This document shows positions 2,537-56,493 of a DNA stretch of 64,000 bases, one piece after another. This stretch comes from Gammaproteobacteria bacterium (lineage in GTDB: Bacteria > Pseudomonadota > Gammaproteobacteria > HK1), in the NCBI GenBank assembly GCA_021773635.1, contig JAJFJV010000017.1, positions 1 to 64,000 on the forward strand. The letters run 5' to 3'. The notes under the pieces were generated by a model, which had not been told where the DNA came from, ran no database searches, and saw only the letters and a list, made by a program, of their open reading frames with translations. The translations under genes and the position numbers were made by a program. How positions within the stretch are numbered: the stretch's first letter is position 1; each line of letters opens with the position of its first letter.

Positions 2537-3766
2537 CTACCGCTCCCGCAGCGCATTGTGCTTCACCTTGAGCACCGGCTTCAGCAGATAATCCAGCACC
2601 GTCTTGTGCCCTGTCAGAATCTCCACACTCGCCACCATCCCGGGAATAATGGGCAGCGGTCCATCCTTGCCTTTGAGGTGCGAGCGCGCGGTGCGCACCC
2701 GAATACGATAAAAACGCTCCCGGGCCCGGCCTTCATCGGCAATGGTGTCCGCACTGATGTGTTCCAGCACCCCCTCAAGACCACCGTAAATTGAATAGTC
2801 ATAGGCGGTGATCTTGACCGTCGCCGATAAGCCCGGACGGAGAAAGGCAATATCTACCGGTCGAATCCTGGCCTCAATGAGCAACTGGTCCTCCAGCGGC
2901 ACGATCTCCATGATGTCCATTCCGGGCTGGATCACCCCGCCTACGGTGGTGAGGCGGGTATTTTTTACGGTGCCGCGCATGGGTGCGCGAATCACTGTAC
3001 GCCCGACCTGATCGGCGCGAGCAGTGTTGATCTCGGCCAAGGCCGCCAACTCACCTTCCTTCTTCGACAGCTCGCCACGCGCGTCCGCACGAAAGCTGTT
3101 ACGGCGTTCCTGAATCCGGCCACGCAGCTCGTTGACCTCACGCCGCAGGCGCAGTACTTCCACCTCGGAAACCACGCCTTTGGCGACCAACGGCGCGGTC
3201 ATGTGCAATTCATCCTCGGCAAGCCCCAGACCCCGTTCCAGGGCCGCCGTGCCCTGCTCCAATGTACGTTGCCGGGAAAGATACAGGGCCTTTTCCGCCG
3301 CCGCCGACTCGGATCCGATATCGTCCGGAAAACGTAACTTCTCCCCGCTCGCTTCAGCCCGCAGGCGGGCGATAGCAGCGCGCAAGGTCTGGTGGCGGGA
3401 CTGCCCTTCCCGATAGGCGGCACCAAAGCGGGTATCATCGATGCGCAGCAGCACCTCGCCCTTCTCAACCACATCCCCTTCCTGCACCAGCAATTGTGCG
3501 AGGATGCCTCCTTCGAGGCTCTGGATGACCTGTTCACGACTGGAGGGAATAACTTCGCCCATGCCTACAGTCACCTCGTCCAGCAATGCGCGGGATGCCC
3601 AGATATAACTGGCCACGAGAAAAGCGAGCATGAGGAATAGCGCCAGCCCGGCGAGCGGATTGGCATCGAGCATGGTCGCGGCACGGATATCGGACATATA
3701 GGCGGCATCACCGCGTGCCCGGATGCGATCGCGACGGCTAAACCCCTCGGGATTGGCCATAGCCAT
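2537..3766 (-). CDS. HlyD-family membrane fusion protein of type I secretion system
   Basis: Periplasmic adaptor linking the inner-membrane ABC exporter to the outer-membrane TolC-like channel. With the chosen start it is 409 residues, normal for HlyD/LapC proteins. A single membrane helix lies near residues 36-57 (LAGLALFLMLAFLVASYIW). A biotinyl-lipoyl half-motif follows (GGILAQLLVQEGDVVEKGEVLL), then a long coiled-coil hairpin rich in Arg/Glu/Leu (about 115-260), the second lipoyl half (RTVIRAPMRGTVKN) and a beta-barrel C-terminus. I chose the ATG at 3766 rather than the in-frame codon at 3796 because GGAGGGG lies just before it and the exporter gene stops 2 nt upstream (TAGC-ATG). The tight junction shows translational coupling with the ABC gene. 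Downstream is the adhesin. Confidence 0.93.
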   Translation of the reverse strand: MAMANPEGFSRRDRIRARGDAAYMSDIRAATMLDANPLAGLALFLMLAFLVASYIWASRALLDEVTVGMGEVIPSSREQVIQSLEGGILAQLLVQEGDVVEKGEVLLRIDDTRFGAAYREGQSRHQTLRAAIARLRAEASGEKLRFPDDIGSESAAAEKALYLSRQRTLEQGTAALERGLGLAEDELHMTAPLVAKGVVSEVEVLRLRREVNELRGRIQERRNSFRADARGELSKKEGELAALAEINTARADQVGRTVIRAPMRGTVKNTRLTTVGGVIQPGMDIMEIVPLEDQLLIEARIRPVDIAFLRPGLSATVKITAYDYSIYGGLEGVLEHISADTIADEGRARERFYRIRVRTARSHLKGKDGPLPIIPGMVASVEILTGHKTVLDYLLKPVLKVKHNALRER

Positions 3767-3767
3767 G

Positions 3768-5963
3768 CTAGGACCCCTCCCCTTGCGCCGGAACACTGGA
3801 CACCGGGCGAGTCAGGGCCTTCAGCACCTCATCCCGTGGACCATTGGCCACCACCTGCCCCTGGTCGAACACAATCACCCGCTGGGCCAGATTCACCATG
3901 GAGGGTTTGTGGGTCACCACCACGACCGTACATCCCTCAATAAACTCCTTAAAACTACGTATAAAGGCCTGTTCTGTGGTGTGATCCATGGCGCCCGTGG
4001 GTTCATCCAGCAGCAAAATGCGGGGATGCGGAAGCAGCGCGCGCGCAATTGCCACTGCCTTTGTTTGCCCCCCGGACAGACCACTACCGCCCTCGGAAAT
4101 TGGCAAATCGAGGCCCAGGGGGTGACGCCCCACAAATTCTCCCAATCCGGCCATGTTCAGCGCCTCGAGGATCGCCTTGTCATCGGCCCAAGGCATTCCC
4201 AGGGCCACGTTTTCTCGCAAGGTACCGGAAAACAACCTCGTGTCCTGTGAGACGTAGCCGATCGAACGACGCAAATCCACGGGATCGATCTGCTTAAGTT
4301 CAGTGCCATCCAGCAGTATTGACCCCTCAGCAGGCTGGTAGAGCCCCATCAGCAGCTTCAGCAGGGTACTTTTGCCAGAACCGATGCGCCCGAGTATCGC
4401 CACCCGCTCCCCGGGTGCAATCGTCAGAGAGACCTGCCGCAGGGCTACGCCTTCCTGCCCCGGATACGCAAAATCAATCCCGGCAAGTTCCAGACCGCCG
4501 GAAATTTTGGGCTGATGGAGAAAACCATGGCCGGCGGGTCGTTCCACCGGCTGGGCCATCAGGTTCTGGAGCATGAAGTAGGCCGCGCGGGCGTGCTGAT
4601 AACGGGCCAACAAACCGGCCACCTGTCCCAGTGGGGCCAGAGCGCGGCCGCTGAGGATTACGCAGGCAATTAACCCGCCCACACTGAGCTCACCGGTACT
4701 GATAATGTGTACCCCCCAGACCACCACCAGTATGGTGACGCACTGTTGGGCGAAAACCGAAAAATTTACCACTAGGGATGAGATGGACCGAGCCCGCGCC
4801 GCAGTGCGACCGGTACGGGCCGCGCAGTATTCCCAGCGCTCCTGCATCGCCCCCTCGGCGCACAGGGTCTTCAGACTCTCCAGTCCATCGACGGCCTCCA
4901 CCAGCACACCGTGTTTCTGCGCCCCTTCCTGGAGATGGCGACGCATTAACCAGGCCAGCGGAATCTGCGCCAGCAAGCCCACCAGCATTACCAGCGGCAC
5001 TGCCAGCAAGGGCACCAGATGAAGGGGGGCGGCAATGAGCGAGATCACCCAGATAAAAAAGAAGGCAAAGGGCAGGTCGGCAAGCGCGGTGAGGGTTGCC
5101 GAGGTCATAAAATCCCGCAGGCTCTCAAACTCCCGCAACTGGGCCGAGAAGGCGCCTGCCGAGGCGGGGCGGGCCTCCAGTCGTAATCCCAGGGCTTGGC
5201 GAAACAGGATTCCGCCCATGAGGAGATCCGCCTTGTTGCCGGCGATATCCAGAAAATAGCCCCGCAGGTTACGGGCGATAAATTCAAAACCGATGGCAAT
5301 GGCCGTACCCGTGGCTAGTACCACCAGGGTCTCCAGGGCATTATTTGGAACCACCCGATCGTAGACATTCATGATGAACAGCGCGGTGGCAAGCGCCAGC
5401 ACGTTGACCAGGAAGGTGGCCACCATGGCCTCAAAGTAATAGCGCTTGAAGCGCCACAGGGTGCCCCAGAACCACGAGCGCAAATTCCATGGCCCCTCAT
5501 CATCCCGGACGCCACCCGCCTCGGCTCGCGGGTGGGCAAAGATACAAAAACCGGTGTAGCGCTTCTTCAGTTCGGGCAGCGTGGTCTGCACAGAGCCGCC
5601 ACCACTTTCGGGAAAACAGGCCTCAACCCGACCTTTTTTGCCTATAGCGGTCAGGACACAGGCCTGCCCATCCTTCAACAACAGGATGGCGGGCAATACC
5701 AATGGAGAAATACGATTGAGGGATCGCTTGAGCAGACGAGAGGCATAGCCTTGCTGTTCCGCGGCGACCAACAGGAGTTCCGGTGAAAGTGCTTCCGCGC
5801 CCGCGCTGGGCAGGCCGGCACGCAATGCATTGAGAGAAATCTGCTGGCCGTTCAGTCTGGCCAGAATGCCCAGACATTCGAGCAAGGGATCATCGGGAAG
5901 CCCGGGCTTTTCCAGCCCGGAGTCTGACAGTGGCGAGGCTGTTTCGCTGGAAGTGCTCACCAT
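3768..5963 (-). CDS. Type I secretion ABC transporter, LapB/LssB-like (degenerate C39 domain)
   Basis: Inner-membrane ATP-driven exporter, 731 residues, the usual length for LapB/LssB-type permease-ATPases. Domains in order: an N-terminal C39-peptidase-like domain (about 25-150, DPLLECLGILARLNG ... PAILLLKDG), six membrane helices (about 165-440), and a nucleotide-binding domain with Walker A GRIGSGKST (525-533), signature LSGGQ (629-633) and Walker B ILLLDEPT (from 649). The N-terminal domain lacks the usual DCG catalytic context of a true C39 protease, so it probably binds the substrate without cutting it, as known for adhesin and RTX exporters. It sits between the TolC-like and HlyD-like genes on one strand. 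The substrate is inferred to be the Calx-beta protein downstream. Confidence 0.95.
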   Translation of the reverse strand: MVSTSSETASPLSDSGLEKPGLPDDPLLECLGILARLNGQQISLNALRAGLPSAGAEALSPELLLVAAEQQGYASRLLKRSLNRISPLVLPAILLLKDGQACVLTAIGKKGRVEACFPESGGGSVQTTLPELKKRYTGFCIFAHPRAEAGGVRDDEGPWNLRSWFWGTLWRFKRYYFEAMVATFLVNVLALATALFIMNVYDRVVPNNALETLVVLATGTAIAIGFEFIARNLRGYFLDIAGNKADLLMGGILFRQALGLRLEARPASAGAFSAQLREFESLRDFMTSATLTALADLPFAFFFIWVISLIAAPLHLVPLLAVPLVMLVGLLAQIPLAWLMRRHLQEGAQKHGVLVEAVDGLESLKTLCAEGAMQERWEYCAARTGRTAARARSISSLVVNFSVFAQQCVTILVVVWGVHIISTGELSVGGLIACVILSGRALAPLGQVAGLLARYQHARAAYFMLQNLMAQPVERPAGHGFLHQPKISGGLELAGIDFAYPGQEGVALRQVSLTIAPGERVAILGRIGSGKSTLLKLLMGLYQPAEGSILLDGTELKQIDPVDLRRSIGYVSQDTRLFSGTLRENVALGMPWADDKAILEALNMAGLGEFVGRHPLGLDLPISEGGSGLSGGQTKAVAIARALLPHPRILLLDEPTGAMDHTTEQAFIRSFKEFIEGCTVVVVTHKPSMVNLAQRVIVFDQGQVVANGPRDEVLKALTRPVSSVPAQGEGS

Positions 5964-6019
5964 AGCCTAGGCCTGCAGGAATCCAGAACAGCCACACGGC
6001 TGGCGGCGGCCGTTCGGAT

Positions 6020-7399
6020 TTATCTGGACGGACCCTCTATGCCGAGGGTAGAGACCAGACGGCCCTGGCTTGCGGCGACAAAATAGTGGTTGAAAAGGTC
6101 GTCAAAACGACCACTCGCCAGATTGGAGCGCGCCGCAAACAGCTCATTCTCCGCATCAAGCAAGTCCAGCAGGCTGCGCCGCCCCAGCTCATGCTGGGAA
6201 CGATAGGCCTTCAGGGTCTGAGCGCTCGCCTCAACATAAGCCGCAAGGTGAATCAGGCGCTCCTCACTGGTGGCCTTGGCGTGTAGTGATACCGTCACAT
6301 CCTCTTCCACCGCACGACGGGTATCGGCGACCCGATCCACGGCGGCAAAATGTCGATGTACCTGAGCCTGCTCACGCGCCTTGTCCGAACCACCGCGAAA
6401 CAGATTCCAGCGCCCCACCAACATCACCGAATTGGTGTTACGCACGCCTTCTACACCGGCAAGATCAGAGTCCCGGTTGGCACCCACTTCCAGGTCCAGA
6501 CGCGGCCTGAAGGCCGCCTTGGTAGCGCGCACCGCCGCCTCGGCAGCATCCTTTTCCGCTACTGCGGCTTTCAATGAAGGATTTTCCTCCAACGCGCGTG
6601 CAATGCCTTCTGCGATGGCGCTGTCCAGGGCCGCATTATCAAGCTGTCCGTCACTAATGAAATTTGGTGCCTGAAAGCCCGGGGTCAACAAGCCGCTGGG
6701 CGCCTCCCCCACAATACGCTGGTAGTTGCTCGTCACCTCACGCAAACGACCGCGCCGCGCCACCAATACACTGCGTGCCAATGCCAGCCGGCTCGATGCC
6801 TGCTGCAGATCGGCACGACGGCGGACCCCACGATCCACCCCAAGTTTTACCTTGTCCCAATTCTTTTTATGCGCGCCAAGGTTGGATTCCGCCAGCTTTA
6901 CCAGCTGCTCGCCCTTGAGCACTTCCAGATAGCTGCTGACCGCGCCCAGTGCCACCTGCTCCCAGGTTCCGCCCACGCGACCATGGGAGGCATCCAGCAA
7001 GGCTTCACGGCGTTCCACTTCGCTTTTGGTTGCGAAACCGTCATACACCATCTGACTTAAACTCAAGCCGGCCTTGCGTGCCGTCAGCGCACGATTATCC
7101 TTTCCTGCCGCGTGCAACTGTTTGATATTGCTGTATTCACGCCCAACACTGCCCGTGAGATTTACACTGGGCAGATAGCCCCCCCGAGCCTGACGAATAT
7201 CCTGACGCGCTGCACGCCGCGAGGCCTCCGCCCCCAGCACTTGCGGGTTGGTCGCCAGCGCAGTTTGTACCGCTTCTTCCAGGGTTTTGGCATAGCTGAC
7301 GGGAACAGACATCAGGCTAGCGATAGCAACACCGACCATCACCCGACTTCGCCGAGAGAAAATACGGGTGTCTACAGGGGTTTTTGGCTTCTGTTTCAT
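6020..7399 (-). CDS. TolC/LapE-family outer membrane channel
   Basis: Outer-membrane channel of the type I secretion system; first gene of the four-gene operon. 459 residues from the ATG at 7399; an upstream in-frame TTG at 7423 would add eight residues (MPLGLDVD). The chosen start gives a basic N-terminus and a clean signal peptide ending in VPVSYA before KTLEEAVQTAL, the typical first helix of outer-membrane efflux proteins. Two repeated outer-membrane-efflux modules follow, with long amphipathic helices and the family pattern YLEVLKGEQLVKLAESNL in the first half and LDLLDAENELFAARSNL in the second. The pattern matches the TolC subfamily paired with LapB/LssB exporters. The next gene starts 56 bp downstream. 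Confidence 0.93.
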   Translation of the reverse strand: MKQKPKTPVDTRIFSRRSRVMVGVAIASLMSVPVSYAKTLEEAVQTALATNPQVLGAEASRRAARQDIRQARGGYLPSVNLTGSVGREYSNIKQLHAAGKDNRALTARKAGLSLSQMVYDGFATKSEVERREALLDASHGRVGGTWEQVALGAVSSYLEVLKGEQLVKLAESNLGAHKKNWDKVKLGVDRGVRRRADLQQASSRLALARSVLVARRGRLREVTSNYQRIVGEAPSGLLTPGFQAPNFISDGQLDNAALDSAIAEGIARALEENPSLKAAVAEKDAAEAAVRATKAAFRPRLDLEVGANRDSDLAGVEGVRNTNSVMLVGRWNLFRGGSDKAREQAQVHRHFAAVDRVADTRRAVEEDVTVSLHAKATSEERLIHLAAYVEASAQTLKAYRSQHELGRRSLLDLLDAENELFAARSNLASGRFDDLFNHYFVAASQGRLVSTLGIEGPSR

Positions 7400-7837
7400 A
7401 TCCACATCCAGGCCCAACGGCAAGAGAACCCTATATTAGGGAGCCCAACGACTTGCGCCAATCCTAAGTCGCAACATCATATAAGTAAAGTATTCTCATG
7501 ATTTAACAAATAAAAGTCATAGATGGGGGATGACTTATTCATGCCGGTTACTGCACGCGACTATGGTAGCCCCCAACGGGCAAGACCGAAAGTCTTTGAT
7601 TTGTAAACTTCCGCACACCTTGGCCACATTTATTTCCGCGCTCACAAAGCATGGCCCCTCTACCTGCGCGTACCAAAACATCATTTGTTGAACACCCTGC
7701 CCTGCTCGCTGAAGGTATCAGGCGAGATAAGAGCAATGCGAGTGCAACAACCGCGGAGAACCCCTAACTCAGTGTAATTTATGAATATTGTTCGTTACCA
7801 CCGACCAGAATAGCGGCTCCCGGTTGGAAAAATCAGC
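7400..7837. other. Divergent intergenic region between secretion operon and ncg operon
   Basis: About 500 bp separate the divergent tolC-like and ncgA genes. The part near tolC is AT-rich (7480-7530) and likely holds the secretion-operon promoter, but no convincing -35/-10 pair stands out. At 7581-7598 there is a hairpin, CAAGAC/GTCTTTG with a CGAAA loop. No ORF here has coding character. The ncg promoter at the right end is listed separately. Confidence 0.4.
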
Positions 7838-7866
7838 TTGCAAAGGCCTATTTTATAAGATATAAA
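7838..7866 (+). promoter_or_regulatory. Sigma-70-type promoter of ncgABC-nirK
   Basis: TTGCAA at 7838-7843 and TATAAA at 7861-7866 are 17 bp apart, close to the sigma-70 consensus in sequence and spacing. They lie 56 bp before the ncgA start codon, which has GAGGG as ribosome binding site. The -10 element falls inside an NsrR-like palindrome, as expected of a repressed promoter. Confidence 0.5.
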
Positions 7867-7879
7867 CTGCGCCCATCTT
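7857..7879. promoter_or_regulatory. Candidate NsrR operator overlapping the ncg promoter
   Basis: Left half AAGATATAAAC and right half GCGCCCATCTT form an 11-1-11 imperfect palindrome with AAGAT/ATCTT ends. This is the length and end pattern known for the nitric-oxide-sensing repressor NsrR (AAGATGYATTT half-sites). NsrR is known to control the same operon in Nitrosomonas europaea. Only the outer bases match well, so binding is a prediction. Confidence 0.38.
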
Positions 7880-7921
7880 CAAATCTGCAGGCCACCACAA
7901 ATAAGCGAGGGAATAAAAATC

Positions 7922-9001
7922 ATGCCATCAGCCCACCCAGTGAAAAGCCTCAGCCTGGCAGTTGTTGCCGCGCTCGTGATGATTTTTGGCAATCCCTCAC
8001 ACAGCATGGCCGCCAAGCATGTCTTCGAGCTCAGCATCGATGAAATGGAGATCGAGGTTGCGCCGGGCTTTAAATACCAGGTCTTTGCCTTCAATCGCCA
8101 AGTACCTGGCCCCCTGATGCATGTGGGGGAAGGCGATGACGTGACCGTCCATGTCACCAACAACACCTCATTGCCGCACACCATTCACTGGCACGGCATC
8201 CACCAAAAAGATAACTGGCGCAATGATGGCGTCCCCGGCATTACCCAGGGCAACATCGAAGCGGGTGATACCTACACCTATAAGTGGAAAGCCGATAAAA
8301 CCGGCAGCATGTGGTACCACTGCCATGTCAACGTCAACGAGCACGTGGGCATCCGCGGTATGTGGGGACCCATCGTTGTAGATCCCAAAGAGCCCATTGC
8401 TATCGAGAAAGAGGTCACCAAGGATGTGATCATGATGCTCAGCGGTTGGCAATCAAAGTACGCCAGCAAGCTGGGTGATGGCATGGGTCCCCATGACGTC
8501 ACCGATTACTTCTCCCTGAATGGCCGCTCCTTTCCGCTAACCCAACCGTTGCGGGTCAAAAAGGGTGATGTGGTGCGCATACGCTTCTACGGGGCTGGTG
8601 GCGAATTTCACACCATGCATAGCCATGGCCACGACATGCTCATTACCCACAAGGACGGCCTGCCCATCCCCGCACCTTATCTGGTGGATACCGTGTTGTT
8701 TGGCCCGGGCGAGCGCTATGACGTCATCGTCCGCATGGATAATCCCGGATATTTCATCTTTCACGACCATGTAGACAAACACGTCACCAATAATGGCAAG
8801 TTCCCGGGCGGACCGATCACCGTGATCGAATACGACGGCGTAGAACAACTCGGCGACTATGCCTGGAAGGGCGTGAACTACGACCCCAATTTTTTCTACA
8901 GCGAATCCCTCGCCAAACCCCACGGCCTGCACAACCATGATCGCTTTATGGGTACGCCGATCGAAAAGAAAGGCCGTAAGCGCAGAAGGACCCACAAGTG
9001 A
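7922..9001 (+). CDS. ncgA: Two-domain multicopper oxidase NcgA (blue copper oxidase)
   Basis: Periplasmic copper oxidase, 359 residues, with a signal peptide ending near HSMAA. Two cupredoxin domains. The first carries HTIHWHG (His86, 89, 91) and WYHCHVNVNEH (His133, Cys134, His135, His141), that is, a type 1 site plus part of the trinuclear site. The second carries HTMHSHGHD (230-238) and FHDHVDKH (281-287) without a cysteine. One type 1 copper in domain 1 only is the type C two-domain layout. The C-terminus is basic (KKGRKRRRTHK). It is the first gene of a four-gene operon with two cytochromes c and nirK, the order known as ncgABC-nirK in Nitrosomonas, where it supports nitrite and NO handling. 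Its stop overlaps the next start (GTGA). Reaction specificity is not visible from sequence. Confidence 0.88.
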   Translation: MPSAHPVKSLSLAVVAALVMIFGNPSHSMAAKHVFELSIDEMEIEVAPGFKYQVFAFNRQVPGPLMHVGEGDDVTVHVTNNTSLPHTIHWHGIHQKDNWRNDGVPGITQGNIEAGDTYTYKWKADKTGSMWYHCHVNVNEHVGIRGMWGPIVVDPKEPIAIEKEVTKDVIMMLSGWQSKYASKLGDGMGPHDVTDYFSLNGRSFPLTQPLRVKKGDVVRIRFYGAGGEFHTMHSHGHDMLITHKDGLPIPAPYLVDTVLFGPGERYDVIVRMDNPGYFIFHDHVDKHVTNNGKFPGGPITVIEYDGVEQLGDYAWKGVNYDPNFFYSESLAKPHGLHNHDRFMGTPIEKKGRKRRRTHK

Positions 9002-9684
9002 AGCTTGCTCTTACAGCCTTCACTCCCTTGATACTGTTGGTGGCCCCCGTGGCCACTATGGCTGGAAGCTCGCTGCTGGAACAGCAGTGTGCCGAATGCC
9101 ACAGCCTCAACGGCCCGGCGCCCACCACGGCAACGGCCTATCGGGAACGTAAGGGACCGGATCTCGGCTACGCGGGCATCAAGTACCGTGCCGAGTGGCT
9201 GGAGCAATGGTTACAGAAGCCCACACGCAACCGGCCGGCCGGGATGTTCTACGGCAAGCACATCAAGACGGGACCCAAGGGTGATGTGGTTGATGAAGCC
9301 AGCCTGAAGCCACACCCCAAACTGGATGCCGCTGCTGCAAAGGCTGCAACCACGGCCCTGATGGCCCTTAAGGAAGGCGCCGAGCGTATCAAAACCGGCG
9401 ACTACAAAACCGGCAAGATCTCGCTCAGCATGGGGGAAATGCTATTCGACAAGTTTCGTGGCTGCCTCGCCTGCCATCAGGTCGAACCCGGCTACGGCGG
9501 TGTCTCTGGCCCCGAGGTCTACACCATTGGAAAGCGCCTGCAAGCCGACTACCTCGTCAGCTTCATGCGTAACCCCAAGCTGTGGGAACCCAGGACCATC
9601 ATGCCCGCACGCAAACTGAAGGACCGCGATTTACAAAAATTCGTACATTATTTTAATGCCCTTTCAGCGGAGGACTTCCAGTGA
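8998..9684 (+). CDS. ncgB: Diheme cytochrome c NcgB
   Basis: Periplasmic electron carrier of 228 residues. It starts at a GTG that overlaps the ncgA stop. The signal peptide ends near VATMA. Two CXXCH heme sites are visible: CAECH (31-35) and CLACH (156-160). The long middle segment (about 36-150) has the KGPDLGY and RAEWLEQWLQ patterns of cytochrome c class I domains, and a likely Met ligand lies in TIMPARKL near the end. The length and two-heme layout match the ncgB product of the Nitrosomonas nirK operon. The stop overlaps the start of the next cytochrome, indicating translational coupling. Confidence 0.85.
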   Translation: MKLALTAFTPLILLVAPVATMAGSSLLEQQCAECHSLNGPAPTTATAYRERKGPDLGYAGIKYRAEWLEQWLQKPTRNRPAGMFYGKHIKTGPKGDVVDEASLKPHPKLDAAAAKAATTALMALKEGAERIKTGDYKTGKISLSMGEMLFDKFRGCLACHQVEPGYGGVSGPEVYTIGKRLQADYLVSFMRNPKLWEPRTIMPARKLKDRDLQKFVHYFNALSAEDFQ

Positions 9685-10049
9685 AGCCGGGAATCGCAAG
9701 CGGGTTTCTCACCGCACTGCTCCTCACACCACTGGCCAGCGTCAGTGCCGGGGACAACGCTAAAGACAATTACGACACCTACTGCGTTCAATGTCACGGC
9801 CTCACCGGTGATGGCCTTGGCGTCAACGTACCGGATATGTCGGTACAACCGCGGGATCATACCGATGCGCAGGATATGTCCTCACGCTCTGAACAGGATC
9901 TGTTCGATGCCATCAAGGGGGGTGGTGTGGCTATCGGAAAATCAACACTGATGCCACCGTGGGGCGACAACCTCAGCGATGGGGAAATCCACGATCTGGT
10001 GGCCTACCTGCGCGAACTCTGCCAGTGCCAGCACGGCAAGGCCAAGTAA
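9681..10049 (+). CDS. ncgC: Monoheme cytochrome c NcgC
   Basis: Small periplasmic cytochrome of 122 residues, GTG start overlapping the previous stop (GTGA). The signal peptide ends near ASVSA. One heme site, CVQCH (35-39); the probable axial Met is in TLMPPWGDNLSD, and the C-terminal helix IHDLVAYLREL is typical of class I cytochrome c. The tail ELCQCQHGKAK has two extra cysteines and a histidine but not a CXXCH site. It fits the third position of ncgABC-nirK and is a plausible electron donor to, or relay for, the copper enzymes on either side. Confidence 0.84.
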   Translation: MKPGIASGFLTALLLTPLASVSAGDNAKDNYDTYCVQCHGLTGDGLGVNVPDMSVQPRDHTDAQDMSSRSEQDLFDAIKGGGVAIGKSTLMPPWGDNLSDGEIHDLVAYLRELCQCQHGKAK

Positions 10050-10115
10050 GCAAAGAATTTGCCGCATTGGCGGTAAACACCGTGCCCATAAGGCACTTCA
10101 TCAGGGAGTAAAAAA

Positions 10116-11069
10116 ATGAGCTTCAGTAAATCTACCTTGAAGATGGCCGCTCTGGGCACCGCCCTTGGCCTCGTCTTCAGCACCCAGATCGCGGCGGCCA
10201 AAACCGTCGAGATCACCATGCATGCCATGGAAAACACCGTCGAGATCGATAACAAGGGCACAAAATACGCCGGCTGGACCTTTGACGGGAAAATCCCGGG
10301 GCCGCTGGTGCGGGTCAAAGTTGGCGATATCGTTGATTTCAAACTGATTAACGACAAAGACAACAAGGAAAGTCACTCCATGGACTTTCATGCCGCCCAA
10401 GTGGATGTACTGGACGAATTCTCACCGGTGAAACCTGGTGAGACCAAACACTTCAAGTTCAAGGTCAAGCTACCCGGCGCCTTCCTGTATCACTGTGGTG
10501 CCATGCCCATGCAGCAGCACATTGCCCGCGGCATGTACGGCATGATCATCGTCGACCCGAAAAAATACACCAAGAAATTCCCCAAGCCTGACCGCGAATA
10601 CGTGATCATTCAGGGGCAGCTCTTCCCTAACGCCGACGATGACAAGGCCATGCTGGAAGACAAGGGCTGGACCAACTCGCTGATTAACGGCAAGGTCTTC
10701 CACTACGATCCGGTGCATGATCCCGACGCCAGCATCGTGCTGATGTCCAAGCCCGGTGAGCGCGTACGTATCTTCTACGGCAACGCCAACATCAACCAGC
10801 CTATCGCCGCCCATCCCATTGCCGGCATCTGGGACCGGGTCTATCCCGATGGCAGCCCGAACAACGTGCTTTATGGCATGCAGACCTATGGTATTCCCAC
10901 CTTCGGTTCCGCGGCCATGGATATCGTCTCTCCGGCTGACAAACCCACCAACAACGCCATCGTCGATCACGCCATGCGTGCCGCCATGCGCGGTGCCATC
11001 ACGGTGCTGATGAATCGTCCGGATGCCGACCCGACCCTCGGCAAGGGTGACAAGATTCAGCTTCAATAA
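10116..11069 (+). CDS. nirK: Copper-containing nitrite reductase NirK
   Basis: Periplasmic enzyme reducing nitrite to nitric oxide. 317 residues, with a signal peptide ending in IAAA and ribosome site AGGGAG before the ATG. All ligands of the NirK family can be placed: type 1 copper His87, Cys127, His135, Met140 (YHCGAMPMQQH, RGM); type 2 copper His92, His126, His285 (VDHAMRA); and the catalytic Asp90 and His233 (SMDFHAA; AAHPIAGIWDR). Spacing follows the classical enzyme except for one residue fewer between Cys127 and His135. It is last in the ncgABC-nirK operon and is followed by a strong terminator. Use in respiration versus nitrite/NO detoxification cannot be decided here. Confidence 0.93.
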   Translation: MSFSKSTLKMAALGTALGLVFSTQIAAAKTVEITMHAMENTVEIDNKGTKYAGWTFDGKIPGPLVRVKVGDIVDFKLINDKDNKESHSMDFHAAQVDVLDEFSPVKPGETKHFKFKVKLPGAFLYHCGAMPMQQHIARGMYGMIIVDPKKYTKKFPKPDREYVIIQGQLFPNADDDKAMLEDKGWTNSLINGKVFHYDPVHDPDASIVLMSKPGERVRIFYGNANINQPIAAHPIAGIWDRVYPDGSPNNVLYGMQTYGIPTFGSAAMDIVSPADKPTNNAIVDHAMRAAMRGAITVLMNRPDADPTLGKGDKIQLQ

Positions 11070-11088
11070 TTGTAGGGAGCCCTTAACA

Positions 11089-11122
11089 ACCTCCCCCCCT
11101 CACGGGGTGGGAGGTTTTTTTT
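11089..11122 (+). terminator. Rho-independent terminator after nirK
   Basis: AACCTCCC pairs with GGGAGGTT around a C-rich loop and runs into eight T residues. It lies 20 bp after the nirK stop and closes the ncgABC-nirK operon. Confidence 0.9.
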
Positions 11123-11290: not shown

Positions 11291-12697
11291 TCAGGAACCA
11301 GACACAGGCAGCCGAATTTCAATACACAAACCACCCTCTGCCCGGTTAGTTGCCCTGATCTGCCCACCGTGAAACACCACCGCACGGTGGGCAATAGCGA
11401 GCCCCAGACCAAATCCGCCACTGTCCCGATCCCGCGCCTCGGCCGCCCGTACAAAGGGCTCAAACAGGCGCTCCAGCATTTCATCTGAAACACCCGGCCC
11501 CGCGTCACTGACCCGGATAGTGGCCTGCTGTTGTGATTGGGAGCAAAGCCCTTCAACCACCACCTCTGTTCCCTCGCGGGTGTATTTCAGCGCGTTACGC
11601 ACGACATTTTCCAGGGCCCGGAAAAGCAGTTCTGCATTCCCGTTAATTGTGCAAGGCGGCATATCACACAGCCGTACCCGGCGCTTATGTGATCGGGCCT
11701 CAAAGTCTGCGTCTCGCGCCACCTCCTTGAGTAGTGCCGACAGATCCACTTCCTCTTTATCAAGTGTTGCGGCACCCGCCTCCAGGCGGGAAAGGCTCAG
11801 CATCTGCCCCACCAGTTCATTCAGGCGTTCCCCTTCTCGCTCGATGCGCGCCAGTTCTGGCAGCAGGCTGCCATCACCGCGCTGGCGCGCAATGCCGGTT
11901 GCCACCTGCAGGCGCGCCAGGGGTGAACGGAGTTCGTGTGAGAGATCGTTGAGCAACTGTTTTTGCCCGTTGATGAGGGACTGCAACTTACCCGCCATGT
12001 AGTCGAAGCTGCGCCCGAGATCACTGATCTCATCCCGCCGCCGCCCCATCGCCGAACCCACCCGGGTATCCAGCTCTCCATCGGCAAAGCGCTGGCTGGC
12101 AGTGCGCAAATGTCTGAGCGGCCGAGTCAGGTACCAGGCTAGCCAGGCACACACCAGACCACTGACCAGTAGGGCGATAACAAAACGCATCCAGTAAAGT
12201 TCTGGCCGGCGCACCCACCCCCGGGCGCCTGAAAGCAGGGTGGAGAATTCGGCGCGCCTAAGAGGTGGCGGACTCGCCAGCGAAGGTGCTTGCAGGACCG
12301 TCACCAAGCCACGGTGCGGGTAAACGCGTACTGCCATGACGGTGTAATCTCCGCCGTCCCCGGTACGTATCCCACGCGAGAGAATCCGTCGCTCGAGATT
12401 TTCAGGAAGGGGACGACCGAGCAATTCCCGCCCCCCGGCGTCCACTACCAGCACTTCCGTCCGCGTATATTGCCGCTGCAGGCTCCGGAGCACCTGCCTG
12501 GCCGCCGTTTCACCACTGTGCTCAAGTGCCGCCGTCACCGCCTCTACCTGCACCGTGGCATAGCGGGATCGGCGATCTATGAGGCGCGCAGGATCCTCAT
12601 CCTGCAAAAGCTGGCTCATGATCCAGGTAACGCCAAATCCCATAAGCAACATCACGGTCCAGAACCAGAAAAAAATCTTCCAAAACAGTCTGCCCAT
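11291..12697 (-). CDS. cpxA: Sensor histidine kinase CpxA
   Basis: Inner-membrane envelope-stress sensor of 468 residues. Two membrane helices (about 6-28 and 171-190) flank a periplasmic domain of about 140 residues. A HAMP domain follows (TRPLRHLRTASQRFADGEL), then the phosphoacceptor helix with LSHELRSPLARL, and the ATPase domain with N box ENVVRNALKYT, G1 DAGPGVSDEML and G2 GFGLGLAI. It autophosphorylates at the His of LSHELRSP and passes phosphate to the response regulator encoded 6 bp upstream on the same strand. CpxA rather than another OmpR-class kinase is indicated by the CpxP-like gene and CpxR box just beyond the regulator. Confidence 0.88.
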   Translation of the reverse strand: MGRLFWKIFFWFWTVMLLMGFGVTWIMSQLLQDEDPARLIDRRSRYATVQVEAVTAALEHSGETAARQVLRSLQRQYTRTEVLVVDAGGRELLGRPLPENLERRILSRGIRTGDGGDYTVMAVRVYPHRGLVTVLQAPSLASPPPLRRAEFSTLLSGARGWVRRPELYWMRFVIALLVSGLVCAWLAWYLTRPLRHLRTASQRFADGELDTRVGSAMGRRRDEISDLGRSFDYMAGKLQSLINGQKQLLNDLSHELRSPLARLQVATGIARQRGDGSLLPELARIEREGERLNELVGQMLSLSRLEAGAATLDKEEVDLSALLKEVARDADFEARSHKRRVRLCDMPPCTINGNAELLFRALENVVRNALKYTREGTEVVVEGLCSQSQQQATIRVSDAGPGVSDEMLERLFEPFVRAAEARDRDSGGFGLGLAIAHRAVVFHGGQIRATNRAEGGLCIEIRLPVSGS

Positions 12698-12703
12698 GGC
12701 GCT

Positions 12704-13402
12704 CTAGTCCGTCGTCAACTGGTAGCCCACGCCACGTACAGTCTGAATGAGCGGCATTTCGCCCGTCTCGGGGCCCAGCTTGCGACGCAGATTACTCACG
12801 TGTACATCAATGCTGCGATCGTAACGCACCAGATCGCGCCCCAGTGCCTGCTCCGAAAGCTGTTCCTTGCTCACCACCTTTCCCGCCTGGCGCACCAGCA
12901 CCTCCAGCAGGCTGTACTCGGTACTCGTTAGCTCCAGGGTCTGATTTCCAAGCATGGCCAGACGGGCTCCCGGTCGTAATTCGAGCCGACCACTGCGCAG
13001 CACCTCGCTATCGGGTGCCGAAAATTTGGGGGTCACAGTCGACTGGGTGCGACGCAGAACCGCGCGCAGTCGTGCCACCAGCTCCCGCGGGTTACAGGGT
13101 TTAGGCAGGTAATCATCCGCCCCCATTTCCAGCCCGACGATACGATCCAGGTCATCACCGCGGGCGGTGAGCATCAGCACCGGCACCTGCGAGCTGCTGC
13201 GAATCCGGTTCAGGGCATCAAAGCCATTGAGCCGGGGCAACATGACATCCAGCACCACCACGTCAAATCCTCCTTCGACGGCCCGCTGCGCACCACTTTT
13301 ACCGTCATGAGCGGACTCCACCTCGAAACCCTCCGGCGCAAGGTATTCAGCGAGCATTTCACAAAGCTCCACATCGTCATCAACCAACAGCACCTTGCCC
13401 AT
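12704..13402 (-). CDS. cpxR: Response regulator CpxR
   Basis: OmpR/PhoB-family transcription factor of 232 residues. I take the ATG at 13402 (MGKVLLVDDDVEL); an in-frame extension to 13441 would add 13 residues unlike the family. The receiver domain has the acidic pair DDD, the phosphorylated Asp in VVLDVMLP, Thr in LTARG and Lys in YLPKPCNP. The C-terminal winged helix ends in RSIDVHVSNLRRKLG and QTVRGVGYQL, typical of CpxR. It lies upstream of cpxA in one operon and diverges from two envelope-protein genes. A three-half-site CpxR box lies 70-95 bp before its start, suggesting autoregulation. Confidence 0.92.
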   Translation of the reverse strand: MGKVLLVDDDVELCEMLAEYLAPEGFEVESAHDGKSGAQRAVEGGFDVVVLDVMLPRLNGFDALNRIRSSSQVPVLMLTARGDDLDRIVGLEMGADDYLPKPCNPRELVARLRAVLRRTQSTVTPKFSAPDSEVLRSGRLELRPGARLAMLGNQTLELTSTEYSLLEVLVRQAGKVVSKEQLSEQALGRDLVRYDRSIDVHVSNLRRKLGPETGEMPLIQTVRGVGYQLTTD

Positions 13403-48920: not shown

Positions 48921-51728
48921 ATGAAATTCTACACTCGGAAACAGCCCCTATGGATTTCAGGGCTCCTGATTCTGCTCATGAGCCTGTCGGTGTCTGCCGC
49001 ACCGAGCACCCCCTCGGAATTCTACGAAGACGCCCTGCGCCGTTACACGGATGGCGAACATAATGCTGCCATTATCCAGCTGAAAAACGCGCTCAAGCTG
49101 GATTCCGATCACCTGTCGGCGCGCCTGCTGCTCGGCCAGGTCTATCTCAGCAAGGGTGATGGCGCCAACGCGGAAAAAGAATTGCGCATCGCACGCACCT
49201 CCGGTGCGGATGAAAACCTGGTGCTGGTGCCTCTGGCCCAGGCTTATCTGCTCCAGGGAAAGCACAAGAAGATTTTTGACAAATTCGCCGCGGGCCGACG
49301 CCACCCGGTGACTGAATCAGCGCTAGCCATCATTCGTGGCGAAACCCACATACGTCTGCGCCAGCTTGATGAGGCTGAAACCGATTTTTCTCTCGCCGCA
49401 AGTCTGAACCCCGAGAGTGCGGATCCGGTTATTGGCCGCGCCACGGTACTGCTCCATCGGGGAGACCATGAAGGCGCCGAAGATCTGGCTGACGAGGCTA
49501 CATCCATTGCTCCCGAAAGCGCCGGCGCCTGGTATGTTAAGGCCGAAATCCGCCGTATCCGCCAGGATTTGGAAGGTGCCATTGGGTACTACGATAAGGC
49601 TCTTGCACTCTACGATGGACACTTTCGCGCGCGTATTGGTAAAACCGCGGCGTTGCTCGATCTCGGCCGCAAAGGGGAAGCTGTCGTAGAATTGGAACGG
49701 GTCCGCGGGCGACGTCCCCATGACCCGCAGGCCAGCTACCTCCACGCCATGGTGCTCGCCCAGGCCGATCAGTTGAGCGAAGCCCAGGCCGTGCTTCGTA
49801 CCGCGGGCATCACCCTGCTCAGCAGAGGACGCGATTTTCTCTACAGTCATCCGCCGAGTCTGCTGCTCTCCGCGGTTATCCACCACGCCGATCAAAAATA
49901 CGATTCCGCCTACGAAGAGATCCAGCGTTTTCTGAAACTGGTGCCCCACCATGTGGGTGGACGCATACTGCTGGGAGGCCTGTTAATACGCCGGGGCAAC
50001 CATAAACAAGCCATTGATGTCCTTGAAAGGGCGCTTCGCTTTGCGCCCAAGAATGCCCAGCTCCATGGACTCCTCGGCAATGCCTATATGGGGATACGAG
50101 ATTTTTCCAAAGCCACCCGCTACTTCGAGAAGGCAGCAAAACTTGCACCGGATCTCGCCACCCTGCACACCCAATTGGCCTTGAGCCGGCTCGCCACCGG
50201 TCAAGGCGATACCGCACTAGCTGACTTGGAGACGGCCTTCAGCCTTGATTCAGGCGGACGGGCGGGAATACTCCTCGGCACCATCTTGCTCAAACAAGGC
50301 AAACAGGCCGAGGCCCTGAAAAGTATCCGCAGGACGCTCAAGCATCAGGCCACAAACCCCACGGCCCACAACCTGTTGGCAACAATTTACCTGACCGCCC
50401 GGAAAACTCAGGCTGCACGCCAGGCCTTTAACCAGGCAATCGCTGTAGATACCGGCTATCTGCCAGCGCGTTACAACTTGGCCAAAATGGACATTGCCAT
50501 CGGCCGGCTGGAAGAGGCACGGGCGCGCTACCTGGAAATTCTTAAACTCGCCCCAACAGAAACCCGGGCCATGAAGGAACTGGCGGCCATGGCCAAAACT
50601 GCCGGGCAGCTTTCCCAAGCCATCCGCTGGCTGGAAAAATTGCAGGCCGTGGATGCTAATCAGCTATCCGCCCAGCTGGATTTGGGTGAATTCTATCTGC
50701 AGGCAGGCAAACCAAAGAAAGCCCTCATCCTCTCCCAACAGCTGGAGCAAAAACATCCGCAGAGTCTGCCCGTACTCATTTCCCTGGGGCGTGCAGAATT
50801 GGCCTCTGGAACACGGGACAAGGCCATCGTCACTTTTCGGCGGATGAGCAAATTTGCCGGCTTCGCGGAGAATCAACTGCTGCGTATCAGCCGTTATCAG
50901 ACAGGCTCGGGTGATTTGGAAGGAGCCCACTGGTCATTAACAAAGGCGCTGGAGGGAAAACCCGGCTATCTTCCGGTGGAAATTGAAATGATCGGTGTGG
51001 AATTGCGCCTCGGAAAATATGAACAGGCGCTCAAACGTGCACGAGGAATGCAGCACGCTCACCCACAAGAACCCCGCGGTGCACTCCTCGCCGGCGATGT
51101 GCTGATGGCAATGAAACGCTACGGCGAGGCGTTGAAAGCCTACCAGACCGCAGAAACCAAACAGAGCGGCCCAGCGCTTACAGTACGCCTGTACCGGGCC
51201 CACAAGGCCGACGGAAAATTGAAACGGGGCCTTAAACTGCTGGAGCGATGGCTAACGGCACATCCTCAGGATCACGAAGTCCGCCGTGCCCTCGCCTCCG
51301 GCTACGCGGAAAGCAAACGGGTACAGGACTCCATACGCGAGCATGAACGGCTGGCAAAAGTGATGCCGGACGATGGCGCTATCCTCAACAATCTGGCCAA
51401 TCTCTACCTGCAAACGGGTGACGCCCGCGCCCTCTACTATGCGGAACGAGCCTATCAGCGTGCCCCGAAACAGGCGGCCTCGCTAGATACTTATGGATGG
51501 GTCCTGGTAAAAATGGGCGAGCCCGGCAAGGCGCTGCGCTACCTGCGCGAAGCCCAGTCACGGGCATCACGTAACCCGGGAGTGCGCTACCACCTGGCCA
51601 TTGCCCTTAGTCACCTTGGTCGAAACAAAGAGGCCCGACGGGAACTGAAAGCGCTGCTGAAACTGAAGGAACCCTTTACGGAGCGCGCCAAGGCCGAGGC
51701 CCTGGCGCGGGAGCTCGAGGGGAAATAG
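48921..51728 (+). CDS. PEP-CTERM system TPR-repeat protein (PrsT-like), copy 1
   Basis: 935 residues with a signal peptide ending near LSVSAAP. The mature N-terminus SEFYEDALRRYTDGEHNAAI, then IQLKNALKLDSDHLSARLLL, is the hallmark of the PEP-CTERM/XrtA TPR protein family. About twenty TPR-like helical pairs cover the whole length, for example GNHKQAIDVLERALRFAPKN and GRLEEARARYLEILKLAP, and the protein ends without a membrane anchor. No lipobox Cys is seen at the signal cleavage point, unlike lipoprotein members. Family members occur with exosortase loci and are thought to help export or assembly of polysaccharide or sorted proteins. It lies between PEP-CTERM genes 2 and 3 and has the same length as copy 2. 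Confidence 0.88.
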   Translation: MKFYTRKQPLWISGLLILLMSLSVSAAPSTPSEFYEDALRRYTDGEHNAAIIQLKNALKLDSDHLSARLLLGQVYLSKGDGANAEKELRIARTSGADENLVLVPLAQAYLLQGKHKKIFDKFAAGRRHPVTESALAIIRGETHIRLRQLDEAETDFSLAASLNPESADPVIGRATVLLHRGDHEGAEDLADEATSIAPESAGAWYVKAEIRRIRQDLEGAIGYYDKALALYDGHFRARIGKTAALLDLGRKGEAVVELERVRGRRPHDPQASYLHAMVLAQADQLSEAQAVLRTAGITLLSRGRDFLYSHPPSLLLSAVIHHADQKYDSAYEEIQRFLKLVPHHVGGRILLGGLLIRRGNHKQAIDVLERALRFAPKNAQLHGLLGNAYMGIRDFSKATRYFEKAAKLAPDLATLHTQLALSRLATGQGDTALADLETAFSLDSGGRAGILLGTILLKQGKQAEALKSIRRTLKHQATNPTAHNLLATIYLTARKTQAARQAFNQAIAVDTGYLPARYNLAKMDIAIGRLEEARARYLEILKLAPTETRAMKELAAMAKTAGQLSQAIRWLEKLQAVDANQLSAQLDLGEFYLQAGKPKKALILSQQLEQKHPQSLPVLISLGRAELASGTRDKAIVTFRRMSKFAGFAENQLLRISRYQTGSGDLEGAHWSLTKALEGKPGYLPVEIEMIGVELRLGKYEQALKRARGMQHAHPQEPRGALLAGDVLMAMKRYGEALKAYQTAETKQSGPALTVRLYRAHKADGKLKRGLKLLERWLTAHPQDHEVRRALASGYAESKRVQDSIREHERLAKVMPDDGAILNNLANLYLQTGDARALYYAERAYQRAPKQAASLDTYGWVLVKMGEPGKALRYLREAQSRASRNPGVRYHLAIALSHLGRNKEARRELKALLKLKEPFTERAKAEALARELEGK

Positions 51729-53685: not shown

Positions 53686-56493
53686 TTGAATGTCAGTAAT
53701 TTTTTCCACGGTGGCGTACTCGGCTTGCTGATCACGCTATCGGCATCCGGCCCGGCTCAGGCAGGTCCGGCAGATGCACCCAAATTTTTTGAGGACGCGC
53801 AGGCGCGCTACAGCGCGGGTGATTACAAGGCGGCAATCATTCAGCTGAAAAATGCCCTGCAGAACGACCCCAAACACCTTTCTTCCCATATCCTCATAGG
53901 AGTCATCCGGGTCGAAAAGGGGGATGGTGCCGGGGCCGAAAACGCCTTGCGTATGGCCCAGCGTCTCGGGGCCGACCGCAAGCTCACAACCGTGCCCATG
54001 GCACGCGCCCTGCTGTTACAGGGGCAGTACAAGAAACTGCTCAAGGAACTGGAAGCCGAGGGCTTTCCACCAAAGATCCAGGCCGCACTGCTGGTGGAAC
54101 GCGGGCAGGCCCACCTGGAGCTGCTGAATATCGACGCGGCCTACAGGGCTTTTAGCCGGGCAGCCGAAAATGATGCCGGCTCGGCCCGGGCCGTCGCGGG
54201 CAAGGCCACGGTACTGATACGCAAGGGCAAGCTGAGCGATGCCGGACGACTGGCCGATCACGCTGTGGCGCTGGCTCCGGATGATGCCGTGGCGTGGAAC
54301 GTCAAGGCCTCTATTCCACATTTGCAGGGGAACCTGCAGGACGCAGTCCGCCTGTACAGCAAGGCCATCGAATTGAACGAATTACAGCTCGATGCCCGGC
54401 TAGCACGTATCGGCCTGCACCTGGACCTGAAGCAATTCGAGGCAGCATCCGGGGACCTGGATTTTCTGCAACAGGAATTTCCGCTGGAACCCCGAGCCGC
54501 CTATTTGCGCTCGGTGCTGCTCAATCGCACCGGGGATACCGATGGCGCCCACAAGGCCTTGTCAGAGGCCATCGCCATCGTGGAAAGTCTGCTCCCACAG
54601 TATGTATTCAGCCGGGCACCCATCCTGCTGGTGGCGGGACTGGCAAACTATGGTGGCGGCCATTTTGAAAAATCCCGCGTTTATCTGACGCGCTATATCG
54701 AGAAATTTCCCGGGCAACCAGGACCGCGGAAATTGCTGGGCGCCATCCTGATGAAGGACGGCGCTTATCGGCAGGCTATTTCGGTGATGGAAGCGGCGCT
54801 CAAGTACGCGCCCAGAGATCATCGATTACTGACCCAGCTCGGTACCGCTCACATGCGTGCCGGACACCACGATGTCGCCAGCACGCTGCTGGAACGAGCG
54901 GTAAAATTGAGCGGCGGGGCCAGCGATGTGCGCGCACAACTTGCCTACAGCCGACTGGCAAGTGGTGATCATTCAAGTGCTGTCGAGGAGTTGAATGCGG
55001 TTCTGGCCCAGAATCCAGATGCACTTCAGGCCGGTATCACCCTCATCATCACCCATCTCAAACAACGGGATTACGCGCCGGCAGTGAAGATAGCCAGCGG
55101 ACTTTCCCGCCGCAATCCGAAAGACACCACCCTGTTAAACCTGCTGGCCACCGCGTATATCGGTGTCCGGGACTATGGCCAGGCCCGCCTGCATTTCGAG
55201 CGCGCCATCGCTCTCGATGAGAATTTTCTCACTGCCCAAATTAATCTGGGAAAGGTTGATCGTCTGGAGGGCAAACTGGACCAGGCGCTGGATCATTTCC
55301 AGCAATTGCTCAATGCGCACCCCGATAGCACCCAGCTGTTGATCGAACTGGCCCGGGTACAACAAGCCCGTGGCCAGCAGGGGCTGGCGATACTGGCACT
55401 GGAAAAGGCGCGCGCACACGATACCCGGGCCATCCCGCCCCGACTGGCGCTGGCCGAGATTTTTATCCGCGAAAAACGTAATAAGCGGGCTCTGCAGATG
55501 GCCCTCGAAGCGGAGGCCATCGACTCCCAAAACCTGAAAGTCCTGGGTACCGTCGGACGCGCCCACCTGGAAAACAAGCGCCCCGACCTTGCCCGGGTCA
55601 TGTATGGCCGGATGGCCAAGATCGCCCGGTTCGACGCGCCAGAACTCTACAAGATCGCCAATCTGCAACTTGATGCCGATGACACACCGGGTGCCATATG
55701 GTCGCTACGCAAAGCGATTCAAGGGGACCCGGTGCACGTTGCCGCCCGGGCGGGCCTGAGTGAATTGCTATTGGCAGATGGCAAAGATGTCGGCGCGGAA
55801 GAGCAGGCCCGGGCACTGCTGGAGCGTTTTCCCAGACGGGCCATTGGCGAGATCTTGCTGGGAGATGTCTTGCGCTACCGGAAGGCGTACCCGGCAGCGC
55901 TAGGACATTATCAAAATGCCCTGCAACGGGAACCCGCCTCCAAAGTCGCCATTCGTGTTTTCCAGACCTGGCAGCTGCAGGGTGATCTGCCCGGAGCAAT
56001 GAGCTTCCTGGCTGACTGGGTCGGGAAACATCCCAATGATCGGCTGTCGCGCCAGGCCCTGGCGGAGGCGTACCTGCGTCAGGGCGATCTGCCTAAGGCC
56101 CGCAGCCACTATGAAAACATCCTGCGCCAGCATCCGGCCTCACCCGCGGTACTGAACAACCTCGCAAATATTCACATCAGGACCGGCGACCCGAAAGCGC
56201 TGACCGTGGCGACACAAGCCTATAATCTGGCGCCCGAGAGTCCGACGGCCAGCGATACCCTCGGCTGGGTACTGGTCAGGCAAGGCCAACCAGAAGAGGG
56301 ACTAAAGTATCTGCGCGATGCCCATTCGCGCTTGTCAGACAGCCCCGAGATTGCCTACCACATCGCCGTTTCCCTGAATCAGCTTGGGCGCAAGGCCGAG
56401 GCCATCAAGCTGCTTGACGAGGCACTTGCATCGGGACGAACCTTTGAGGGCGCCAGGGAAGCCCGCGCCCTGAGACAGCGTCTGGCCCGCTGA
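53686..56493 (+). CDS. PEP-CTERM system TPR-repeat protein (PrsT-like), copy 2
   Basis: 935 residues, TTG start with AGGAG upstream. The signal peptide ends near GPAQAGP. The mature start PKFFEDAQARYSAGDYKAAI and IQLKNALQNDPKHLSSHILI follow the PEP-CTERM TPR family closely. The rest is tandem TPR pairs (GAYRQAISVMEAALKYAPRD; GKLDQALDHFQQLLNAHPDS; GDLPKARSHYENILRQHPAS). It is a paralogue of the gene at 48921 with identical length, both near PEP-CTERM genes. It shares an intergenic region with PEP-CTERM gene 3 and is followed by gene 4. Presumed periplasmic scaffold for export or assembly; no enzymatic motif. Confidence 0.9.
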   Translation: MNVSNFFHGGVLGLLITLSASGPAQAGPADAPKFFEDAQARYSAGDYKAAIIQLKNALQNDPKHLSSHILIGVIRVEKGDGAGAENALRMAQRLGADRKLTTVPMARALLLQGQYKKLLKELEAEGFPPKIQAALLVERGQAHLELLNIDAAYRAFSRAAENDAGSARAVAGKATVLIRKGKLSDAGRLADHAVALAPDDAVAWNVKASIPHLQGNLQDAVRLYSKAIELNELQLDARLARIGLHLDLKQFEAASGDLDFLQQEFPLEPRAAYLRSVLLNRTGDTDGAHKALSEAIAIVESLLPQYVFSRAPILLVAGLANYGGGHFEKSRVYLTRYIEKFPGQPGPRKLLGAILMKDGAYRQAISVMEAALKYAPRDHRLLTQLGTAHMRAGHHDVASTLLERAVKLSGGASDVRAQLAYSRLASGDHSSAVEELNAVLAQNPDALQAGITLIITHLKQRDYAPAVKIASGLSRRNPKDTTLLNLLATAYIGVRDYGQARLHFERAIALDENFLTAQINLGKVDRLEGKLDQALDHFQQLLNAHPDSTQLLIELARVQQARGQQGLAILALEKARAHDTRAIPPRLALAEIFIREKRNKRALQMALEAEAIDSQNLKVLGTVGRAHLENKRPDLARVMYGRMAKIARFDAPELYKIANLQLDADDTPGAIWSLRKAIQGDPVHVAARAGLSELLLADGKDVGAEEQARALLERFPRRAIGEILLGDVLRYRKAYPAALGHYQNALQREPASKVAIRVFQTWQLQGDLPGAMSFLADWVGKHPNDRLSRQALAEAYLRQGDLPKARSHYENILRQHPASPAVLNNLANIHIRTGDPKALTVATQAYNLAPESPTASDTLGWVLVRQGQPEEGLKYLRDAHSRLSDSPEIAYHIAVSLNQLGRKAEAIKLLDEALASGRTFEGAREARALRQRLAR

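Follow-up and report, generated by a model that had tools for sequence, protein, structure and literature searches.

A complete ncgABC-nirK operon, probably repressed by NsrR, in an uncultured gammaproteobacterium

Background

The ncgABC-nirK cluster is best described in Nitrosomonas europaea, where nirK is repressed by NsrR and where NirK and ncgABC give the cell its tolerance to nitrite (PMC5080386, PMC2844404, PMC6967387). According to PMC5080386, which cites Beaumont 2004 and 2005, a need of the cluster for nitrite tolerance is known for N. europaea only. Even in this organism the role of NcgA, NcgB and NcgC is unsettled (PMC6967387). The same cluster has already been published outside the ammonia oxidisers, in Nitrobacter winogradskyi (PMC5080386) and in Zetaproteobacteria from Loihi (PMC3603346). 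These two differ from the locus described here in the reported influence of quorum sensing in the former and in the presence of two NcgA-like genes in the latter.

Our locus lies in a stretch of 64,000 nucleotides of chromosomal DNA, hereafter the window, to which all positions refer unless a contig is named. It resembles the N. europaea cluster in gene content, in domain types, in the clade of its NirK and in the candidate NsrR-type operator that precedes the first gene. It differs from that cluster in the lack of AMO in its host, the unlinked position of nsrR, the weakness of the operator and the marked divergence of NcgA and NirK. The operons of Candidatus Nitrotoga (L069-L071, L073, L079-L081, L091) have the same gene order, and most of them have a TTGACA-N17 promoter with an NsrR site that starts 19 bp after the -35, the same spacing as that of the candidate site in the window. 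However, they have a better -35, a better NsrR site and a nitrite-oxidising host, and their NcgA is about 61-63% identical to that of the window.

The operon and its products

The features of the locus are as follows.

7838..7866, + strand: candidate promoter TTGCAA-N17-TATAAA, whose -35 and spacing resemble those in the sister genomes; unlisted by a simple scan
7857..7879, unstranded: candidate NsrR operator AAGATATAAACTGCGCCCATCTT, a weak copy that overlaps the -10; better copies in both sister genomes
7922..9001, + strand: ncgA, two-domain multicopper oxidase (blue copper oxidase type) with a type-1 copper motif in domain 1
8998..9684, + strand: ncgB, di-haem c-type cytochrome; its GTG start overlaps the ncgA stop (GTGA)
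9681..10049, + strand: ncgC, mono-haem c-type cytochrome; its GTG start overlaps the ncgB stop (GTGA)
10116..11069, + strand: nirK, copper nitrite reductase with type-1 and type-2 copper motifs; catalytic Asp and His present by motif
11088..11122, + strand: terminator-like hairpin followed by a T run, 3' of nirK

The operon is thus complete: a two-domain multicopper oxidase, a di-haem cytochrome, a mono-haem cytochrome and nirK follow one another in that order and in one direction. The preliminary description had reported these four genes with GTGA overlaps at both the A/B and the B/C junction, and the gene order, the coordinates and the two overlaps are indeed as it gave them. Between ncgC and nirK there is a gap of 66 bp. 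Counted in the translations, NcgB has two CxxCH motifs and NcgC one; the copper ligands of NirK are putative, placed by what is common to enzymes of this type.

Among solved structures, the best relatives of NcgA are the two-domain laccase 2zwn (536 bits) and then 3g5w (410 bits), the N. europaea blue copper oxidase. The best relative of NirK is 4kns (365 bits), the N. europaea NirK. On the model for classical NirKs the window protein scores 170 bits, below the cut-off of 296, which fits its distance from those enzymes. Across 274 sampled genomes of the class, the NirK matches fall into two sets, one with at least 57% identity, nearly all of them ncg-linked, and one with at most 43%, none of them linked. 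Both NcgA and NirK are closer to other gammaproteobacterial forms than to those of N. europaea.

Directly upstream of ncgA, and divergent from it, a type I secretion-like set occupies 2537-7423 on the minus strand (an HlyD-type fusion protein, an ABC transporter with a degenerate C39 domain and a TolC-like outer membrane protein). The neighbours that had been named as cpx genes are a histidine kinase/response regulator pair and an LTXXQ/heavy-metal-resistance protein; they can be called cpx-like, but at the family level only. Elsewhere in the window, at 48921-51728 and 53686-56493, lie two ORFs whose length is in both cases exactly 935 aa; each consists almost wholly of TPR repeats, and an ORF in the reverse orientation separates the two.

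Host genome and sister species

The host genome is 2.55 Mb in size and 99.6% complete. Two MAGs of sister species, OFTM50 and OFTM67, both labelled Gammaproteobacteria, have ncgABC-nirK as well; their NcgA is 91% and their NirK 95-96% identical to the window proteins. A tolC-like gene adjoins the operon in the window genome and in both sisters, that is in three species of the genus.

The host had been taken to be something other than Nitrosomonas, with a genome search for amo proposed as a check, and this stands. A search for the amoA/pmoA family (PF02461, AMO/PMO) gave no match in the genus of the window, while eight genomes in the class sample of 274 did match in the same search. A MAG labelled Methylomonas, searched as a positive control, gave no match, and the positive control was therefore drawn from this class sample.

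Probable regulation by NsrR

Control of the operon by NsrR is plausible. The preliminary description had proposed NO-responsive repression by NsrR and had set the presence of nsrR in the genome beforehand as a check. The gene is present and this part of the proposal stays plausible; recent travel of the repression together with the operon is another matter, to which we return below. Host nsrR, at 35707-36156 of contig C13 of the host genome (G000), stands alone between thyA and folA, unlinked to the operon, and encodes an Rrf2 protein with a winged-HTH and three cluster-binding cysteines, as an NsrR repressor should have. Its best NCBIfam model is the NsrR equivalog (137 bits, under the cut-off of 182), its best PDB match is a solved NsrR, and the three cysteines are invariant across six aligned NsrRs. 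It is 64% identical to the NsrRs of genomes G038 and G052, with recognition helix and cysteines equal. In 14 named loci, and also in G018 and G038, an NsrR-like gene lies close to the operon.

As to the DNA site, the preliminary description had pointed to a 23-bp palindrome with AAGAT and ATCTT ends overlapping a promoter with 17-bp spacing. The palindrome is there, but pairing of its outer positions is limited to the 5 bp at either end. With at most one mismatch allowed, chance would produce AAGAT-N13-ATCTT about once in every 64 kb; the palindrome alone is therefore at chance level, and we rejected it as stand-alone evidence for an operator. As for the promoter, TTGCAA-N17-TATAAA gives 9 of 12 matches, but it fails the rule of the promoter scan, which found 0 against a mean of 2.6 per region in shuffles.

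The operator owes its credibility to what is seen in relatives and not to the palindrome as such. To build an operator matrix, we started from the published NsrR consensus (PMC1274295) and refined it on the regions before 70 ncgA genes from outside the genus; because of this seeding, a shuffled control was run. The result, AAGATGTATTTaAAATACATCTT, is a canonical NsrR motif of 19.5 bits with sites in 57 of the 70 regions, whereas ten shuffled sets put through the same procedure gave 17-29 sites and about 10 bits. NsrR-type sites before ncgA are thus the rule.

One may still argue that the 23-mer is palindromic by chance alone, and that the same operon is constitutive or under another regulator, with NsrR acting elsewhere in the genome. 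We consider this rather unlikely. The 23-mer scores only 3.4 bits on the matrix, agrees by eye with 13 of the 22 consensus positions of the 11-1-11 palindrome AAGATGYATTT-N-AAATRCATCTT while overlapping the promoter, and, when the region around it is shuffled, reaches p 0.06; moreover, the canonical NsrR motif, with up to 3 mismatches, is found nowhere in the three genomes of the genus. On the other hand, the 23-mer is the only exact AAGAT-N13-ATCTT match and sits before the one operon for which an NsrR site would be predicted, its score ranks second among 63,978 places in the window, and the same leader has sites of 8.8 bits in OFTM50 and 17.7 bits in OFTM67. Its geometry is common to Nitrotoga: the site starts 19 bp past the -35, with the -10 beginning at its fifth base, and the distance of 19 is exact in seven Nitrotoga/Nitrosomonadales operons. 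Both sisters have their better site 3' of the -10, and the window leader is about 20 bp shorter, so that the sites of the three species are only doubtfully homologous; the alignment of the three leaders is ambiguous around the site. When a genus-specific operator was sought, the regions upstream of nsrR and norS gave only weak candidates (AAGCTACTCCCAGTTTGCTTCTT for nsrR of the host genome, AAGGTTGACATGTTATATACGTT for norS), and that upstream of nnrS gave no candidate. On balance, the operon is probably repressed by NsrR, with the 23-mer as its candidate site.

Across the ncgA upstream regions compared, the distances from the -35 to the NsrR site fall into groups of 13, 19, 25-26 and 31-36 bp, in steps of roughly 6-7 bp. 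This grouping may be a lineage effect.

Probable function and possible capacity for NO reduction

By analogy with the N. europaea mutants reported in papers, the operon most likely serves protection against nitrite and NO. NirK would reduce nitrite to NO in the periplasm; the c-type cytochromes NcgB and NcgC would carry electrons and the two-domain multicopper oxidase NcgA would work with them, so that the cell would tolerate nitrite and the NO made from it. A single promoter before ncgA would drive transcription, and the stand-alone NsrR would repress it until NO, or nitrite via NO, damaged its iron-sulphur cluster and made it let go. The electron routes through NcgA-C and the binding of NsrR to the 23-bp site are what we infer. 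Taken as a whole, we think it quite likely that this is a chromosomal, NsrR-repressed ncgABC-nirK operon for nitrite and NO tolerance in an uncultured gammaproteobacterium.

Alternatively, the operon could serve respiratory denitrification of the nitrifier type, for energy rather than detoxification, which we find improbable. The genome search for norBC that had been proposed as a check found no NorB (cNOR): the host has just two PF00115 (COX1-family) members, one classical COX1 (541 bits) and one B-type. What could reduce NO is the B-type oxidase. On contig C13 of the host genome (G000), positions 11554-13242 and their flanks (L117, L122) hold a small ORF, a CuA-like subunit, the B-type heme-copper oxidase and SCO/SenC. 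Where ba3 has GHPIVY the B-type protein aligns with GHSSQQ, its active-site Tyr being replaced by Gln; a B-type subunit without the HPxVY tyrosine beside a CuA-like subunit and SCO/SenC is the make-up of norSY-senC. The gene order is that of norSY-senC in ammonia oxidisers, and the cluster, which lies outside the window, can be called norSY-senC-like. The missing tyrosine would suit an NO reductase of the sNOR type, the cluster is 97% identical in OFTM50 (L123), and nnrS is present in all three genomes of the genus. However, the function of sNOR-type proteins in nitrifiers is disputed (PMC6967387), the B-type oxidase is absent from OFTM67, although this sister keeps the operon, and control of the NsrR type suggests a stress response.

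Distribution and origin

When species genomes were scanned with an NcgA alignment, 340 NcgA relatives were confirmed. Among the best 80 of these loci, some of which end at contig edges, all four genes are found in 63 and ncgABC in 67. The named hosts include Nitrotoga, Gallionella, Chromatiales, Rhodospirillaceae, a Methylomonas MAG and a Leptospirillum MAG. The preliminary description regarded a host other than Nitrosomonas as unusual; given this range, and the Nitrobacter and Zetaproteobacteria papers (PMC5080386, PMC3603346), we cannot agree. Many bacteria that do not oxidise ammonia carry ncgABC-nirK, and the operon described here is a typical case of a known kind, in a type of host where it is common.

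Ten loci, mostly of Mariprofundus/Mariprofundaceae (L094, L104-L108, L111-L113, L115), have NcgA followed by a longer NcgB-like protein, with no NcgC or NirK within the stretch examined; possibly they represent a variant cluster.

For NirK we made a quick IQ-TREE search with 93 NirKs, one of them from Nitrosomonas. Grouping with ncg-linked forms had been set beforehand as a check, and the window NirK does fall, with SH-aLRT 100, in a clade of 76 rows together with N. europaea NirK and all 73 ncg-linked rows. The same clade takes in two rows in which nirK adjoins nsrR. In these two loci (L139 and L140, of genomes G276 and G164) the nsrR is divergent, and no ncgABC lies alongside in the stretch examined. 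Within the ncg-linked clade the genus of the window sits by itself on a long branch, with other gammaproteobacterial rows close by, and the N. europaea row lies outside these, so nothing points to a recent gift from Nitrosomonas.

It had also been suggested that the operon travelled, with its repression, into this host. A recent move finds no support in a GC3 of 66-75% for the operon, which is normal for the host (68 +/- 4%), nor in the tolC-like neighbour common to the two sisters, nor in the separate NirK branch. Recent acquisition of operon and operator from an ammonia-oxidising Nitrosomonas, which the gene content equal to that of the N. europaea cluster (PMC4940428) might bring to mind, is hardly credible and we rejected it on tree, composition and synteny: NirK and NcgA resemble other gammaproteobacterial forms more than those of N. 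europaea, the place is identical in three species of the genus, and the operon is present in very many lineages.

Implications

We lean somewhat towards the view that the pairing of NsrR with ncgABC-nirK is old and widespread in Gamma-, Beta- and Zetaproteobacteria, mostly in bacteria not known as ammonia oxidisers, and would therefore be a general module against nitrite and NO stress that nitrifiers share; in the genus of the window the operator would have weakened and drifted relative to the promoter, with nsrR elsewhere. Since most loci found belong to other lineages, ncgABC-nirK in a metagenome is a poor sign of ammonia oxidisers. The common NsrR motif, in turn, offers a simple and testable prediction of how the operon is switched on in the lineages that carry it.
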